Assembly: GCA_009694515.1 (NCBI GenBank)
Contig: SHUV01000002.1
Span: 1 to 64,000 of the forward strand
Source: Candidatus Planktophila sp.
GTDB lineage: Bacteria > Actinomycetota > Actinomycetes > Nanopelagicales > Nanopelagicaceae
Length of the DNA stretch: 64,000 nt
Direction: 5' to 3'
The notes below the pieces were generated by a model that was not told the DNA's origin, searched no databases, and worked only from the letters and a program-made list of their open reading frames with translations. The position numbers and the translations under genes were made by a program. Position 1 is the stretch's first letter, and each line of letters opens with the position of its first letter. Of the stretch, positions 34,229-41,276 are shown piece after piece.

Positions 34229-35185
34229 TCAGAGGGAAATTGGTAAATCTGAGCTATTTGAGAGGTAGGTACGGACTCTTTCGGTGCCTTTATTCACATG
34301 TGTTCCCTCTGCAATGAAGCATTGTGACAATTTCACATCAGATTCGATCACCACGTTATCGCCGATGATGCAGTCATCGATGCGGCAGTCAGATGCAATC
34401 GTTGTGTTTGTCCCGATTGCGGTGCCGCCAGTGATCTGGGTGCCATCGCCAATCGTGGAACCAGCCAGCGCCAGATACGCAGCATCTACTAGATCGCGTG
34501 AGCCTTGAAAGAGAGCTGCCGGGGTTCCGACATCGAGCCAATAAGCAGCCTGCTTATATCCAAAGACCGAGCGGTTCTGTGCAATCAGTGATGGGAAAGT
34601 TTCGCGTTCAACACTGACGACAGCTCCCAGCGGAATCTCATTTATGACATCAGGGCTAAATACATAGCAGCCGGCATTAATAAATTTGGTTACCGGATTT
34701 TCCATCTTCTCCAAGAAGGCGGTGACTCGTCCTTCTGAATCTGTGGGAACGCAGCCAAATGCACGAGCATCATCGACTTCAATGAGGTGCAGTGTGACAT
34801 CAGCTTTCTTTTCTTGGTGAAATGAAATTTGGTCTGCAATCAAATGCCGGCTTAAAACATCGCCATTGAAAATGACAATGGGTTCATCGCCTTTTAATAG
34901 CTGCGCCGCATTTCTTATGGCGCCACCTGTTCCAAGGGGCTGTTTTTCAACTGCGTAGAGAATTTTGATTCCCCATTTACTGCCATCACCAAAATACGGC
35001 GTAAAGACTTCTGCCAGGTAGGAAGTGGCAAGCACAAGGGTGTGTATGCCAGCGCGCTTGGCGGCAAGTATTTGATGTTCGGTCACCGGCAGACCAGCAA
35101 CTGGCAACATCGGTTTCGGAGATTTATTAGTTAGTGGCTTCAGGCGTGTTCCAAGACCGCCGACTAATAAAATTCCAACAGCCAT
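34229..35185 (-). CDS. Sugar nucleotidyltransferase (mannose-1-phosphate guanylyltransferase-like)
   Basis: GILLVGGLGTRLKPLTNKSPKPMLPVAG; left-handed beta-helix C-terminus. Confidence 0.9.
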   Translation of the reverse strand: MAVGILLVGGLGTRLKPLTNKSPKPMLPVAGLPVTEHQILAAKRAGIHTLVLATSYLAEVFTPYFGDGSKWGIKILYAVEKQPLGTGGAIRNAAQLLKGDEPIVIFNGDVLSRHLIADQISFHQEKKADVTLHLIEVDDARAFGCVPTDSEGRVTAFLEKMENPVTKFINAGCYVFSPDVINEIPLGAVVSVERETFPSLIAQNRSVFGYKQAAYWLDVGTPAALFQGSRDLVDAAYLALAGSTIGDGTQITGGTAIGTNTTIASDCRIDDCIIGDNVVIESDVKLSQCFIAEGTHVNKGTERVRTYLSNSSDLPISL

Positions 35186-36276
35186 TAGGGTGCACTGACT
35201 TTCGCGAGAATGCGCTCTGCCGCTGTTGCTATCTGTTGATCAGTTGCAGTCAGTGCAATCCGAATATGGTTCGCTCCTGCTTGGCCATAAAAAACGCCAG
35301 GAGTAGCAAGAATTCCCAGTGCTGCCAGCCAGGCAACTGAGTCCCATGAGCTTTCATTTCGCGTCGCCCAGATATAGAGGCCGGCTTCTGAATGATCGAT
35401 ACTGAAACCGGCAGAAATCAGAGCAGGTGCCAGGCGAGCACGTCGTGCGTTATAGCGCCCGCGTTGTTCAACTACATGTTTGCTATCAGAAAGTGCGGCG
35501 ACCATGGCGTGCTGCACCGGTAAGGAGACCATCATGCCGGCGTGCTTGCGTACTTCCAGAATTCTGGCGATTAATTGTGGATCCCCCACTACGAAAGCTG
35601 CGCGATAGCCAGCCATCGAAGATCTCTTGGATAGTGAGTACACACCCAAAATATTGGTGTTATCGCCATCGGTGTATCGCAAAATGGAGGTGGGAGTTTT
35701 TGTATCGCCAAATTCCAAGTAGCACTCATCTGAAACTACGACACTCTTATTCTTTCGTGACCATTCAATGGCTGCACGTAATTCAGATTCGGAGTGAACT
35801 CTTCCGGTTGGATTCGAAGGTGAATTCACCCATGCCAGATCAGCCTTGGGCCACGTGGTTGCGGCAAGGTCAACGGCAGTGGGCGTTGCCTGAGCAAGGA
35901 GGGCGCCGACTAAATATGTTGGGTATGCAATACGTGGATAAAGAACAGTTGCGGACTCCAGCAATGTTGGTAACCAAGCAACGAACTCTTTAGATCCAAT
36001 AAGTGGCAACACGGCAAAGTCGCCACTGGCACCGAGGGTTGTTATAGCCCAATGATAAATTGCGGTGCGCAGTTCTTGGGTTCCCATTGTTACGGGATAA
36101 CTTGGAGAATCAGCTGACTCACGTAAAGCTTGCTGAATAAATTCAGGAGTGGGATCTACTGGAGTTCCTACTGATAAATCGATGGCACCTTGCGGGTGCT
36201 TGCGCGCTATCTCGCCATAGGGAGCGAGGGCATCCCATGGAAAATCAGGTAGTTTTTGGCGCAAGAGCAGTGACAT
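35185..36276 (-). CDS. dapC: Succinyldiaminopimelate aminotransferase-like
   Basis: Class I aminotransferase; adjacent to fdxA as in many actinobacteria; start approximate. Confidence 0.88.
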   Translation of the reverse strand: MSLLLRQKLPDFPWDALAPYGEIARKHPQGAIDLSVGTPVDPTPEFIQQALRESADSPSYPVTMGTQELRTAIYHWAITTLGASGDFAVLPLIGSKEFVAWLPTLLESATVLYPRIAYPTYLVGALLAQATPTAVDLAATTWPKADLAWVNSPSNPTGRVHSESELRAAIEWSRKNKSVVVSDECYLEFGDTKTPTSILRYTDGDNTNILGVYSLSKRSSMAGYRAAFVVGDPQLIARILEVRKHAGMMVSLPVQHAMVAALSDSKHVVEQRGRYNARRARLAPALISAGFSIDHSEAGLYIWATRNESSWDSVAWLAALGILATPGVFYGQAGANHIRIALTATDQQIATAAERILAKVSAP

Positions 36277-36565
36277 CGGTGTGATCAGAGTTTGTTTCTC
36301 CGACCTTTGATGCTCCCCCAGGTGATCCAAGTTCTATAAAAAATTCAGTATTGATTTTCTTGTAGTTCTGCCACTGACCCGGGACGTCATCCTCGTAATA
36401 AATAGCTTCGACCGGGCATACCGGCTCGCACGCACCGCAATCGACACATTCGTCCGGCTGTATATAGAGCATGCGAGTTCCGTCATAAATGCAATCGACG
36501 GGGCACTCTTCGCGGCAGGACTTATCTTTAACGTCCACGCAAGGTTCGGCGATTATATATGTCAC
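36245..36565 (-). CDS. fdxA: 7Fe/4Fe ferredoxin FdxA
   Basis: MTYIIAEPCVDVKDKSCREECPVDCIYDG...CVDCGACEPVCPVEAIYYEDD. Confidence 0.95.
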   Translation of the reverse strand: MTYIIAEPCVDVKDKSCREECPVDCIYDGTRMLYIQPDECVDCGACEPVCPVEAIYYEDDVPGQWQNYKKINTEFFIELGSPGGASKVGETNSDHTDVTALAPKTT

Positions 36566-36647
36566 GAAAGGATCCTCCAGAAGGCTTAGAACGGTAGGAA
36601 GTGATTCTAACCCTGCGAGAGGTTGATTGCACGATTAAGGTTGCTAC

Positions 36648-38222
36648 GTGAACGCCGAAACTTTGCGCGCCGCCCTTGGCAAGCGAGCCACTATTCGCCT
36701 GCGAGATTCAGCTGGCGGATTCCGTGACATCGTCGGCGTACTACAGAGTGAGACAAGCCTCATCAATCGCCGGGGTGAGTTGATTGAATTTGAACTCGAA
36801 GATATTGCTTTTTTCCGCATCATTCCAGTCTTTGACCGCCGAGATGCCGCCAGCGGTCAGCTTCACATTTATGACACCCACACTCGAGAAGTTCAAGAAA
36901 TTGTGAGTCGTGATGGTTATATCTCCATCTACTGCTGTGGTCCTACCGTCTACCGAGATGCCCATGTGGGAAACCTTCGTACCTTCTTACTTGCAGATCT
37001 GATCTCCCGCACACTAACCATGACCGGTGTGGATGTTGAACTCATTCAAAACATCACTGACGTTGGACACATGGCTGATGACTTTGAAGGTGAAGATAAA
37101 TTATTGGCAGAATCTAAACGTACGAAGACTGACCCATTTGCCATTGCTCGCGAATTTGAATCCCGCTTCCACAAAGATTTGGCCTTACTCAATGTCAGAA
37201 AAGCCGATAGCTACCCGCGGGCATCAGAGAATATGTGCTCGATGATCTCTGCCATCGAAAGACTTATCGAAAATAAGAACGCCTACATCGGAAGCGATGG
37301 TTCGGTCTACTTTGATGCAACCTCTATTGAAAGTTATGGCGCAATCAGCGGCAATAAGTTAGCAGCGCTCAAACCCGGCTATCGCCACGAGCACAGTGAT
37401 GAAAGTGGTAAGCACTTGCATGCTGATTGGGCGCTCTGGAAATTAGCCGGTGCACGCACGCAAATGATCTGGGAATCCCCATGGGGCCTGGGTTTTCCTG
37501 GCTGGCATATCGAGTGCAGCGCAATGTCAATTGATTTCCTTGATTCGAAGGTGGATATTCATGTGGGTGGAATTGACCTCAGATTTCCACATCACGAAAA
37601 TGAACGAGCGCAGTCAAATTCATTAGCCCATTCTGAAGTTGTGGGTACCTGGGTGCATGGAGAACATCTGCTCTTTGAAGGGCGCAAGATGTCAAAAAGT
37701 GCCGGGAATGTTGTACTTCTTAGTGATGTGCAAGAACGCGGTTTAGATCCACTCTCACTACGTTTTTCGCTCCTGGAAAACCGCTATCGCTCACAGATGG
37801 ATCTTTCCTGGGCAGCACTCGATGCCGCGCACTCAACTCTTCGCAGGTGGCGCACGCTGATGTCTGAATGGGGAACAGCTACCGACATTAAAATAGACCA
37901 TGAAATTACTGATGCGCTGACCAATGACCTTGATACACCGCGGGCCATGCAAAGGTTGCGCACCATTGAAAAAGATTCTGCTATGGGCTCACAAGATAAA
38001 CGTGCCATTTTCTTATATGCAGATCAGGTGCTCGGACTCGAACTCAATCGAGTTCCCGAATCAAAACCACTTACCCCAGAGTTGGAACAACTGCTAAGTA
38101 ATCGAGTTCGTGCAAGGGAATCTAAAGAGTGGGCACGAAGTGATTCGTTGCGAGCAGAGTTAGAAGCACATGGCCTGGAGATTAGCGATGGACCCACCGG
38201 GCAGAGTTGGCGCTGGAAGTAA
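36648..38222 (+). CDS. Cysteinyl-tRNA synthetase-like protein with ~65 aa N-terminal SH3-like extension
   Basis: CCGPTVYRDAHVGNLR, GFPGWHIECSAMS, FPHHENERAQS, KMSKSAGN; GTG start with AAGG 7 nt upstream. Confidence 0.88.
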   Translation: MNAETLRAALGKRATIRLRDSAGGFRDIVGVLQSETSLINRRGELIEFELEDIAFFRIIPVFDRRDAASGQLHIYDTHTREVQEIVSRDGYISIYCCGPTVYRDAHVGNLRTFLLADLISRTLTMTGVDVELIQNITDVGHMADDFEGEDKLLAESKRTKTDPFAIAREFESRFHKDLALLNVRKADSYPRASENMCSMISAIERLIENKNAYIGSDGSVYFDATSIESYGAISGNKLAALKPGYRHEHSDESGKHLHADWALWKLAGARTQMIWESPWGLGFPGWHIECSAMSIDFLDSKVDIHVGGIDLRFPHHENERAQSNSLAHSEVVGTWVHGEHLLFEGRKMSKSAGNVVLLSDVQERGLDPLSLRFSLLENRYRSQMDLSWAALDAAHSTLRRWRTLMSEWGTATDIKIDHEITDALTNDLDTPRAMQRLRTIEKDSAMGSQDKRAIFLYADQVLGLELNRVPESKPLTPELEQLLSNRVRARESKEWARSDSLRAELEAHGLEISDGPTGQSWRWK

Positions 38223-38223
38223 G

Positions 38224-38535
38224 TTAAGCGCGTTGTAGGACTGCAATTACTCCAATGATAAATCCAATAAATAAAAGTGCGGTACCTGAGTTATCTCCTT
38301 GAATAAGGAGTTCTTTTCCCACACCAAATGTTCCGGCGCGAATGATGACGATAAACCAACCAAAGAGCACGATCAGCTTGTATCTCTTCTTTCCGAAATA
38401 TCGACCTACCCAGCGAATGCACATATAGGTACCAATGAGTGCAAGTATCACTCCAATTGGTGGGCGGGTTGGGTGAATCAGGGTTGCACCTAGTGCTACA
38501 ACTGCTCCAAAGAGCAGCGAAACCAAAGCTCTCAT
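38224..38535 (-). CDS. Small multi-TM membrane protein
   Basis: 103 aa, hydrophobic, four predicted TM segments; overlaps mshB start by 4 nt. Confidence 0.65.
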   Translation of the reverse strand: MRALVSLLFGAVVALGATLIHPTRPPIGVILALIGTYMCIRWVGRYFGKKRYKLIVLFGWFIVIIRAGTFGVGKELLIQGDNSGTALLFIGFIIGVIAVLQRA

Positions 38536-39404
38536 GATGTGATTGATATGCCGGCAAATAGATCGCTCTCGTGGCCGTGCGCATCAAGCTCTCCACTTTT
38601 TTCACCCTTAACTAGCGTGTAGTACTCATTACCCCAGATCTCGAGCCCCAAATTATTTGAGAGCGAAAAGAAAGGGCCATTGACTGCTATTTGTGTGCCA
38701 TGCGCAGCCATTGCAGCCATCTTCTGCTGAACATAATCACCACCATCGATGCACGCATGAACAAAGGAGTCATCTTTTGCAAAAGGCAGATCATCAGCAC
38801 TATCTGCTCCGAAGAAATCTGAGCCAAGTGATTTCATCTTCTCGATGCCAGCTTGAATAACAGATTTGGGCATGACATTCCAATAAATTTTCGGGATATT
38901 CCAAGCAGCGCGCTCTGCCGCTGCCATCGCAACGCGATGGGCTTGGATGTGATCGGGGTGGCCATAACCACCAAATTCATCATAGGTAATCATTACGTGT
39001 GGCTTCACTTCATCAATAACTGAAACCAGTAATTGGCTAGCTTCATCGAAGTCTGCACTCCAAAAAGTATCAGGGCGATTGTTGGCATCTGCTCCCATCA
39101 TGCCGCTATCGCGATAGCGCTTGACTCCCTCACCAAGAAAACGATGATCTGCAACACCGAGTTCTGACATTGCTTGCGCTAACTCCTCCACGCGGTAATC
39201 ACCCAGTGCGTCGGTTTCATGTGCTGCTAGATGGGCAAGATCTGGAACCAGAACTTCACCTTCTTCACCACGGGTGCAAGTAATAAGAGTTATCTGTGCA
39301 CCTAGCGCAGCATAAAGTGCCATCGTGCTGCCATTGTTAATAGTTTCATCATCAGGATGGGCATGCACAAGCAGGGCTCGATAGCCGCTGTAGTTAGCAA
39401 GCAT
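38532..39404 (-). CDS. mshB: MshB-like GlcNAc-Ins deacetylase (mycothiol biosynthesis)
   Basis: LVHAHPDDETINNGSTMALYAALGAQITLITCTRGEEGEV...GYGHPDHIQAHRVA. Confidence 0.88.
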   Translation of the reverse strand: MLANYSGYRALLVHAHPDDETINNGSTMALYAALGAQITLITCTRGEEGEVLVPDLAHLAAHETDALGDYRVEELAQAMSELGVADHRFLGEGVKRYRDSGMMGADANNRPDTFWSADFDEASQLLVSVIDEVKPHVMITYDEFGGYGHPDHIQAHRVAMAAAERAAWNIPKIYWNVMPKSVIQAGIEKMKSLGSDFFGADSADDLPFAKDDSFVHACIDGGDYVQQKMAAMAAHGTQIAVNGPFFSLSNNLGLEIWGNEYYTLVKGEKSGELDAHGHESDLFAGISITS

Positions 39405-40585
39405 TAATAGACCGGTAGTGATGTATCAATCTGCTTCGCCCATGCGACCACGCCACCAAAGACATGTGATGCATCAGAGAATCCTGCATCCTTAAGTATT
39501 GCTAGACACTCGGCAGAGCGCACACCGCTCTTGCAATGCAAGATGATTGGTCGGTCTTGCGGCAAGGTTGCCAATACCGATCCATCGATAAATCCTTGCT
39601 TTGGAATCAGATGCGCAGTCGGAATCTTTACAATCTCGTATTCACTTGGTTCGCGAACATCGATAAGGTAATAGTTCGCTTGGGCATCAATCTTTGTCTT
39701 CAACTCTTGCACAGTAATCGTTGAGCCAGCACTTGCTTCCTGCGCAGCATCAGAGAGGACCCCACAGAATGCTTCGTAATCGGGAAGTAGTGCGGTTTGC
39801 GTTGGGTTGTCACTGCACAGTGGGCAGTTAGGATCTTTGCGCACCTTAATCTTTCTAAAGCTCATATCAAGTGCGTCATAGACCATCAAAGAACCAATAA
39901 GTGGTTCACCAACTCCAGTGAGAACCTTGATTGCTTCCGTAGTTTGAATCGACCCAATTGTTGCGCAGAGAACTCCTAGGACTCCACCTTCGGCACAACT
40001 TGGAACCATGCCCGGAGGTGGTGGTTCTGGATAGAGACAGCGATAGCAAGGACCATACTCGGCCCAGAACACACTTGCCTGTCCGTCAAAGCGATAGATA
40101 GAACCCCACACATATGGCTTCTTTAAAAGCACACACGCATCGTTAACCAAGTAGCGAGTTGCAAAATTATCTGTGCCATCAACAATAATGTCGTACTGAG
40201 AAAAAATCTCCATCACATTCGAATTATCAAGTCGTGTTTCATGGGTAATGACATTTACATAGGGATTAATCTCAGCAATTTTCTCTTTCGCACTCTGTGC
40301 TTTGCTTTTGCCGATATCTGATTGACCATGAATAATCTGTCGCTGCAGGTTTGACTCATCAACTGTGTCGTATTCAACAATTCCAAGAGTTCCAATACCA
40401 GCTGCAGCCAAATACATGAGCGCCGGGGAACCGAGGCCTCCTGCGCCAACGCAGAGCACTTTCGCATTCATCATGCGCTGCTGACCCGCCATTGCAACAT
40501 CAGGGATGATTAAGTGACGGCTATATCGACGAACCTCAGCAACGGTCAGCGCAGGACCTGGCGTGACCAGCGGCGGAGTCTTCAT
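39404..40585 (-). CDS. moeZ: Adenylyltransferase/sulfurtransferase MoeZ (ThiF + rhodanese)
   Basis: RYSRHLIIPDVAMAGQQRM, GAGGLGSPALMYLAAAGIG, C-terminal rhodanese HCKSGVRS; start at MKTPPL. Confidence 0.92.
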   Translation of the reverse strand: MKTPPLVTPGPALTVAEVRRYSRHLIIPDVAMAGQQRMMNAKVLCVGAGGLGSPALMYLAAAGIGTLGIVEYDTVDESNLQRQIIHGQSDIGKSKAQSAKEKIAEINPYVNVITHETRLDNSNVMEIFSQYDIIVDGTDNFATRYLVNDACVLLKKPYVWGSIYRFDGQASVFWAEYGPCYRCLYPEPPPPGMVPSCAEGGVLGVLCATIGSIQTTEAIKVLTGVGEPLIGSLMVYDALDMSFRKIKVRKDPNCPLCSDNPTQTALLPDYEAFCGVLSDAAQEASAGSTITVQELKTKIDAQANYYLIDVREPSEYEIVKIPTAHLIPKQGFIDGSVLATLPQDRPIILHCKSGVRSAECLAILKDAGFSDASHVFGGVVAWAKQIDTSLPVY

Positions 40586-40640
40586 GGGAGTGATTCTGCC
40601 GTACTGTGCCTTTGCCTGCCAATTCTGTACGATGCGCATA

Positions 40641-41276
40641 ATGACTACCGAATCTGCAGCTGCACATAATTCGCGTTCAGATAAATCACGCCTGCCGCGC
40701 GACGAGCGACGAGCAATTTTGCTCTCAGCAGCTCTTGAAGTCTTCACTGCTGCTGGATATCACTCAGCGGCGATGGATGAGATTGCAGACCGAGCCAATG
40801 TCAGTAAGCCAGTTCTCTATCAGCACTTTCCCTCAAAACTAGATCTTTATCTCGCCGTTCTTGACCTTCACATTGATTCTCTGGTCTTTGAACTTCAGAA
40901 AGCTATCTCTTCAACTCCAGATAATAAGCAGCGCGTGCATGTGACTATTAATGCTTACTTTAATTTTATTGAAAATGAGGGAGAGGCATTCCGCCTCCTC
41001 TTTGAAAGTGATATGAGCGTTGAGCCTCAAGTGCGCGAGCGACTTAATCGCATGACCTATGACTGCGCCGCCGCGGTCAGTGGTGTGATCGCCAATGACA
41101 CCGGACTTCCTCGGGAAGAAGCGATGATGCTCGGCGTTGGATTAATTGGCTATGTTCAAGTCACAGCTCGTCATTGGCTGGAAAGAGATGGAAAACTCAC
41201 TCGCGAACAAGCGATAGAACTCGTTGAGAACCTCATGTGGAGGGGAATTTCTGGATTTCCCCGTACTGAACTCTGA
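40641..41276 (+). CDS. TetR-family transcriptional regulator
   Basis: AALEVFTAAGYHSAAMDEIADRANVSKPVLYQHFPSKLDLY. Confidence 0.9.
   Translation: MTTESAAAHNSRSDKSRLPRDERRAILLSAALEVFTAAGYHSAAMDEIADRANVSKPVLYQHFPSKLDLYLAVLDLHIDSLVFELQKAISSTPDNKQRVHVTINAYFNFIENEGEAFRLLFESDMSVEPQVRERLNRMTYDCAAAVSGVIANDTGLPREEAMMLGVGLIGYVQVTARHWLERDGKLTREQAIELVENLMWRGISGFPRTEL

Follow-up and report, generated by a model that had tools for sequence, protein, structure and literature searches.

The main finding of this study is that a cysteinyl-tRNA synthetase (CysRS) bearing an extra N-terminal SH3-like domain, first noticed in an initial annotation of a Candidatus Planktophila sp. contig, is a real and conserved fusion. 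In the stretch that we analyzed—positions 1 to 64,000 of contig SHUV01000002.1, 64,000 nucleotides in all and hereafter called the window—both parts are encoded in a single open frame (Table 1). The synthetase concerned is not the main CysRS of its genome but a third paralogue, CysRS2, beside the canonical CysS and MshC, and its fusion to the SH3-like domain arose several times independently.

Table 1. Features of the fusion gene and its neighbors, in window positions
Feature	Position	Strand	Remarks
SH3-CysRS2 fusion gene	36648..38222	+	one open frame, GTG start, 524 aa
Likely ribosome-binding site AAGG	36637..36640	+	7 nt 5' of GTG; from sequence
SH3-like small beta-barrel, PF24551 SH3_Rv0428c-related, residues 1-60	36648..36827	+	Pfam, homologous loci, AF2
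Linker, residues 61-70, PVFDRRDAAS region	36828..36857	+	AF2 low confidence, alignment
Cysteinyl-tRNA synthetase core (CysRS2), residues 71-524	36858..38219	+	HVGN and KMSKS motifs
CysS_C anticodon-binding domain, residues 475-522	38070..38213	+	PF23493 E 9.8e-10
fdxA ferredoxin, divergent neighbor marking the locus	36245..36565	-
DUF6113-like membrane protein, downstream neighbor	38224..38535	-	PF19608 E 0.006, below cut-off
mshB mycothiol deacetylase, downstream neighbor	38532..39404	-	TIGR03445 357.9 bits, cut-off 224

From its N terminus, the encoded protein comprises the SH3-like domain (residues ~9-58), then a brief linker and an entire CysRS core, in which the Pfam catalytic domain covers residues 88-395 and the NCBIfam cysS match residues 72-522, in agreement with the annotated beginning of the core near residue 71. 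Between codon 45, located within the SH3 domain, and codon 86, located within the conserved CysRS core, no ATG, GTG or TTG occurs in frame. The synthetase is therefore unable to start at its usual N terminus, and the extension must be co-translated with it. Translation from the GTG, which had been annotated as probable, is thus borne out by the lack of alternative starts, and also by the codon constraint described below and by conservation, the extension being kept in relatives including complete single-contig genomes. The fusion can be read directly in two of these, G202—whose start codon and fusion N terminus are identical to those of the window gene—and G061; equal-length frames are present in the complete genomes G166, G093 and G118, and the fusion is also found in the complete genome of IMCC25003 (L084). 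It is present in an isolate as well as in complete genomes.

The extension is related to the SH3 domain of Rv0428c (PF24551), a resemblance that the initial annotation had recognized from its residue pattern. Intermediate gene arrangements at this locus, matches to PF24551 and PF24553, and shared invariant residues all support the link. The window protein itself scores 13.2 bits against PF24551 (E 0.098), below the gathering cut-off of 27, but homologous loci match better, up to E 6.9e-6 within the genus and 8.8e-13 outside it. The fused relative L106 passes the cut-off with 27.6 bits, and a stand-alone SH3 mini-gene in G004 reaches 27.2 bits when scored with its neighbors in frame. The window SH3 domain is 42-58% identical to that of genes in which the domain precedes a GNAT acetyltransferase, and residues invariant or nearly so in the fused, mini-gene and SH3-GNAT contexts include GxRxxxR, D, G.L and F. 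AlphaFold2, with natural relatives as input, predicts a five-stranded small barrel (mean pLDDT 86.9, 88-96 by block) followed by a linker in which pLDDT falls below 50 (residues 61-68). Foldseek returned no match to this model under E 0.05; the nearest solved folds are the Sm/Hfq, RimP and GatD small barrels (E of at least 0.05), neighbors that point to the fold class only, and a search of PDB sequences with the SH3-domain profile gave matches at chance level.

That the window CysRS is an additional paralogue is clear from its genome. The protein scores 366.6 bits against the cysS equivalog TIGR00435 (cut-off 340) and does not reach the cut-off of MshC (TIGR03447; 237.7 versus 485.1 bits), and the same genome encodes elsewhere both a canonical CysS (468 aa, beside an ispD/ispF-like gene, 450.8 bits to cysS), to which CysRS2 is only ~35% identical, and an MshC (413 aa, 529.8 bits to MshC). 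A check of 18 genomes of the same family, the majority single-contig, showed canonical CysS in every one and CysRS2 in 17, the exception being G220. In the window CysRS2, the zinc ligands are C97, C290, H315 and E319, aligned with C28, C209, H234 and E238 of E. coli CysRS, and the KMSKS motif occupies residues 347-351. The residues equivalent to those contacting G34 are R486, R490, W495 and D499, corresponding to R423, R427, W432 and D436 in the E. coli enzyme (PMC12684709). The zinc ligands, the HVGN motif, the KMSKS lysines and the G34 contacts are kept in 109-110 of 110 CysRS2 rows, except at position 432 (E. coli numbering), which is W, F or Y; the third KMSKS position is S or A. Because the zinc, KMSKS-lysine and G34-contact residues are conserved, CysRS2 is probably active and most likely charges tRNA-Cys; it would adenylate cysteine and charge the same tRNA-Cys(GCA) as canonical CysS. 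A second tRNA-Cys was sought with a fixed pattern, which could miss a variant gene, and gave mostly chance matches, with one recurrent tRNA-like match per genome in most genomes; the three that were checked are tRNA-Cys, the gca gene being confirmed in G000, G014 and G015. In three fused relatives (L117:4004-5377, L127:4004-5383 and L128:4004-5371), CysS_C is missing and the frames end after the catalytic part, with SH3 and the catalytic core both retained.

The layout of the locus, together with its variation among relatives, suggests how the fusion came about. As annotated, the gene adjoins fdxA, and the general arrangement is dapC-fdxA / X - CysRS2 / DUF6113-mshB, in which X defines four states. 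In state A, X is an SH3-GNAT gene of ~320 aa that matches PF24553 (Rv0428c_C) and whose stop overlaps or adjoins the CysRS2 start; in state B, X is an SH3-only mini-gene of ~66 aa, which in the focal genus mostly overlaps CysRS2 by four bases of the ATGA/GTGA type; in state C, SH3 and CysRS2 share one frame; and in state D, CysRS2 has no X. A MoeZ/MoeB-like E1 with a rhodanese-like end, named by sequence, lies downstream of mshB (39404-40747, minus strand) and is conserved in the loci of relatives. Rfam detected no RNA gene at window positions 35000-40000, so no known riboswitch or T-box.

The fusion is not a single event. In a tree of the focal genus, the mini-gene rows group together (support 99/97) apart from the fusion rows (100/98), both clades lying among state-A rows. 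When the fused label is mapped on a tree of 113 CysRS2, five changes are required, at least four of them forced by well-supported branches; an AU test rejects a single fused clade (p 1.6e-6). The fusion thus arose several times independently, although this is a tree of the CysRS2 gene, and some of these apparent events could instead reflect local recombination. State A appears to be ancestral within the group, with B, C and D derived; the tree itself gives no direction, and A is read as ancestral since the opposite course would require an identical GNAT to be re-acquired by the same SH3 in the same position, which is improbable. The proposal in the initial annotation that the GNAT domain was lost and its SH3 domain joined to a CysRS is supported by the intermediates at the same locus and also by the absence of the Rv0428c_C GNAT genome-wide from complete genomes with a mini-gene or a fusion, in which only short GNATs (~160-190 aa) match Rv0428c_C, weakly. 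Six of the loci (L107, L110, L116, L131, L147 and L080) are titled Bifidobacterium breve or Streptomycetaceae; these titles look wrong, and the CysRS2 and locus of each group with freshwater acI-type actinobacteria.

Whatever its origin, the fused SH3 domain is under purifying selection. Since pairwise dN/dS failed through saturation of synonymous sites, omega was estimated with a codon model on the tree. For SH3 it is 0.114 when fused, 0.063 as a mini-gene and 0.081 when joined to a GNAT, and the core of CysRS2 in the fused clade gives 0.056; omega = 1 is rejected for SH3 in both the fused (2ΔlnL 165) and the mini-gene form (322). A reading of the extension as a leader peptide is ruled out by this codon constraint.

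The SH3 domain is also found apart from CysRS2, an aspect that the initial annotation, otherwise supported in its account of the fusion, did not include, just as it did not recognize that the CysRS is a second, extra one. G024 has an intact SH3 mini-gene beside fdxA (L070:2578-2778), with CysRS2 missing from the locus. Conversely, no SH3 gene was detected at 12 loci where CysRS2 lies next to fdxA. PF24551 occurs in 120 of 197 sampled actinobacterial genomes and, by table count, 42 of these 120 carry it in short frames (<250 aa), 33 of the 42 being in genomes where the applied threshold detected no CysRS2; the SH3 gene adjoins fdxA in 18 of 20 inspected loci, most of them without CysRS2. Stand-alone SH3_Rv0428c genes of ~70-90 aa were likewise seen at L179-L192, in actinobacteria without CysRS2, and most adjoin fdxA. 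That Rv0428c-like GNATs often sit beside fdxA, as stated in the initial annotation, agrees with the published remark that relatives of Cg3035 often adjoin a ferredoxin gene (PMC3827942). For complementation of an argA mutant of E. coli, the 3' ~800 of the 1008 bp of C. glutamicum cg3035 are enough (PMC3827942); by its length, this fragment would omit about the first 69 codons, which suggests that the GNAT part—in the relative assayed—can work without SH3. Because SH3 is found separately from CysRS2 and vice versa, it looks like an autonomous module rather than an obligatory part of CysRS2. The fdxA-adjacent SH3 locus has taken several evolutionary courses, of which fusion is just one.

Our preferred explanation, which we hold to be somewhat probable, is that CysRS2 is a second and probably active synthetase carrying in cis an autonomous SH3 module left from the upstream SH3-GNAT gene. 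The domain would first have been the N-terminal part of an Rv0428c/Cg3035-type acetyltransferase encoded directly upstream of CysRS2; deletion of the GNAT-coding part would have left a mini-gene overlapping or abutting CysRS2, and an in-frame deletion of the GNAT would have produced the fusion. The module would keep a selected function of its own, whether stand-alone, on a GNAT or on CysRS2, and may use the conserved face GxRxxxR...D..G.L, the same in its other contexts, to tether its enzyme to a partner, either RNA or protein. Against this explanation stand the sub-threshold Pfam match of the window SH3 domain, the lack of a Foldseek match under E 0.05 and the absence of CysS_C in L117, L127 and L128; that absence is odd for an ordinary tRNA synthetase, and it makes these relatives the most promising place to look for a new function. 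A more specific idea, which we regard as a long shot, is that the SH3-like module is a putative RNA-binding adaptor taking over part of the tRNA/RNP recognition by CysRS2. If so, the anticodon-binding domain would be dispensable in the lineage of these three relatives, and the second CysRS would have an atypical RNA as its substrate or work at a particular location, e.g., the ribosome.

Other explanations account for parts of the evidence. SH3 might be a dedicated helper of CysRS2, for instance in tRNA or complex binding, acting in trans as a mini-gene product and repeatedly fused in cis, which would fit the repeated independent fusion, the retention of mini-genes in frames overlapping or nearly adjacent to CysRS2, a fold like that of the RNA-acting barrels RimP, Hfq and GatD (a resemblance short of significance) and the fused lineage that dropped its anticodon-binding domain but kept SH3. 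This is possible but rather unlikely, given the 12 CysRS2 loci at which no SH3 gene was detected, the SH3 mini-gene that G024 retains after CysRS2 loss and the fdxA-adjacent SH3-only genes in many genomes without CysRS2. Less likely still, CysRS2 may have left translation and, in the manner of MshC, ligate cysteine to a different amine, the GNAT and then SH3 belonging to that side pathway. In favor of this are a canonical CysS in every one of the 18 genomes checked, mshB as a neighbor and three relatives that resemble MshC in having no anticodon-binding domain; however, CysRS2 passes the cysS cut-off and falls far below that of MshC, it keeps the anticodon-contact residues in nearly all rows, and a separate MshC is encoded in the same genome. 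The position of CysRS2 directly 3' of, and often overlapping, an SH3 or SH3-GNAT gene could also mean that residues 1-70 are a functionless remnant, kept for an upstream promoter or start needed for CysRS2 expression. The omega values of fused and mini-gene forms, for which neutrality is strongly rejected, and the invariant residues held in common with SH3-GNAT genes indicate protein-level constraint, and this contradicts such a reading, which we consider highly improbable. Although the genome of the window is fragmented and 74% complete, an artefact of assembly or annotation is contradicted by the complete genomes named above, and its likelihood is practically negligible.

Highly streamlined genomes, mostly of 1.2-1.5 Mb, retain two cysteinyl-tRNA synthetases plus MshC and, in these freshwater actinobacteria, the extra CysRS has on several independent occasions acquired a domain from its neighbor. 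The natural intermediates allow a test of what the appended SH3-like domain does for the synthetase, and they also bear on why abundant freshwater bacteria retain a second CysRS. The analysis points in addition to a small stand-alone SH3_Rv0428c protein beside fdxA, widespread in actinobacteria, for which we found no described role.

Synthetases with appended domains are already known; a literature search, covering part of the literature, found no description of an SH3-CysRS fusion, in keeping with the initial annotation, which knew of no CysRS with such a domain. CysRS2 and MshC are both CysRS paralogues in actinobacteria, and mshB neighbors CysRS2; CysRS2 differs from MshC in carrying an anticodon-binding domain, the three relatives excepted. 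In Desulfobacterales, according to PMC9437257 (citing Mukai et al. 2017), CysRS* is a second CysRS without an anticodon-binding domain and coupled to selC/selB homologues. CysRS2 is likewise a second CysRS, with the same domain missing in L117, L127 and L128; in contrast to the selC/selB coupling described there, its locus is fdxA-mshB, free of Rfam RNA genes over the interval searched. With CysS, CysRS2 shares the catalytic domain, zinc ligands, KMSKS, CysS_C and G34-contact residues, and it differs in being an extra paralogue with HVGN in place of HIGH and an added N-terminal SH3-like domain. The closest parallel to the extension is the Rv0428c/Cg3035-type SH3-GNAT (PF24551 plus PF24553, NF049894), which has the same homologous N-terminal SH3-like domain, adjoins a ferredoxin gene as well and, in relatives of the window, is encoded whole directly upstream of CysRS2. 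The window protein lacks the GNAT domain of that family and instead has a cysteinyl-tRNA synthetase after SH3.
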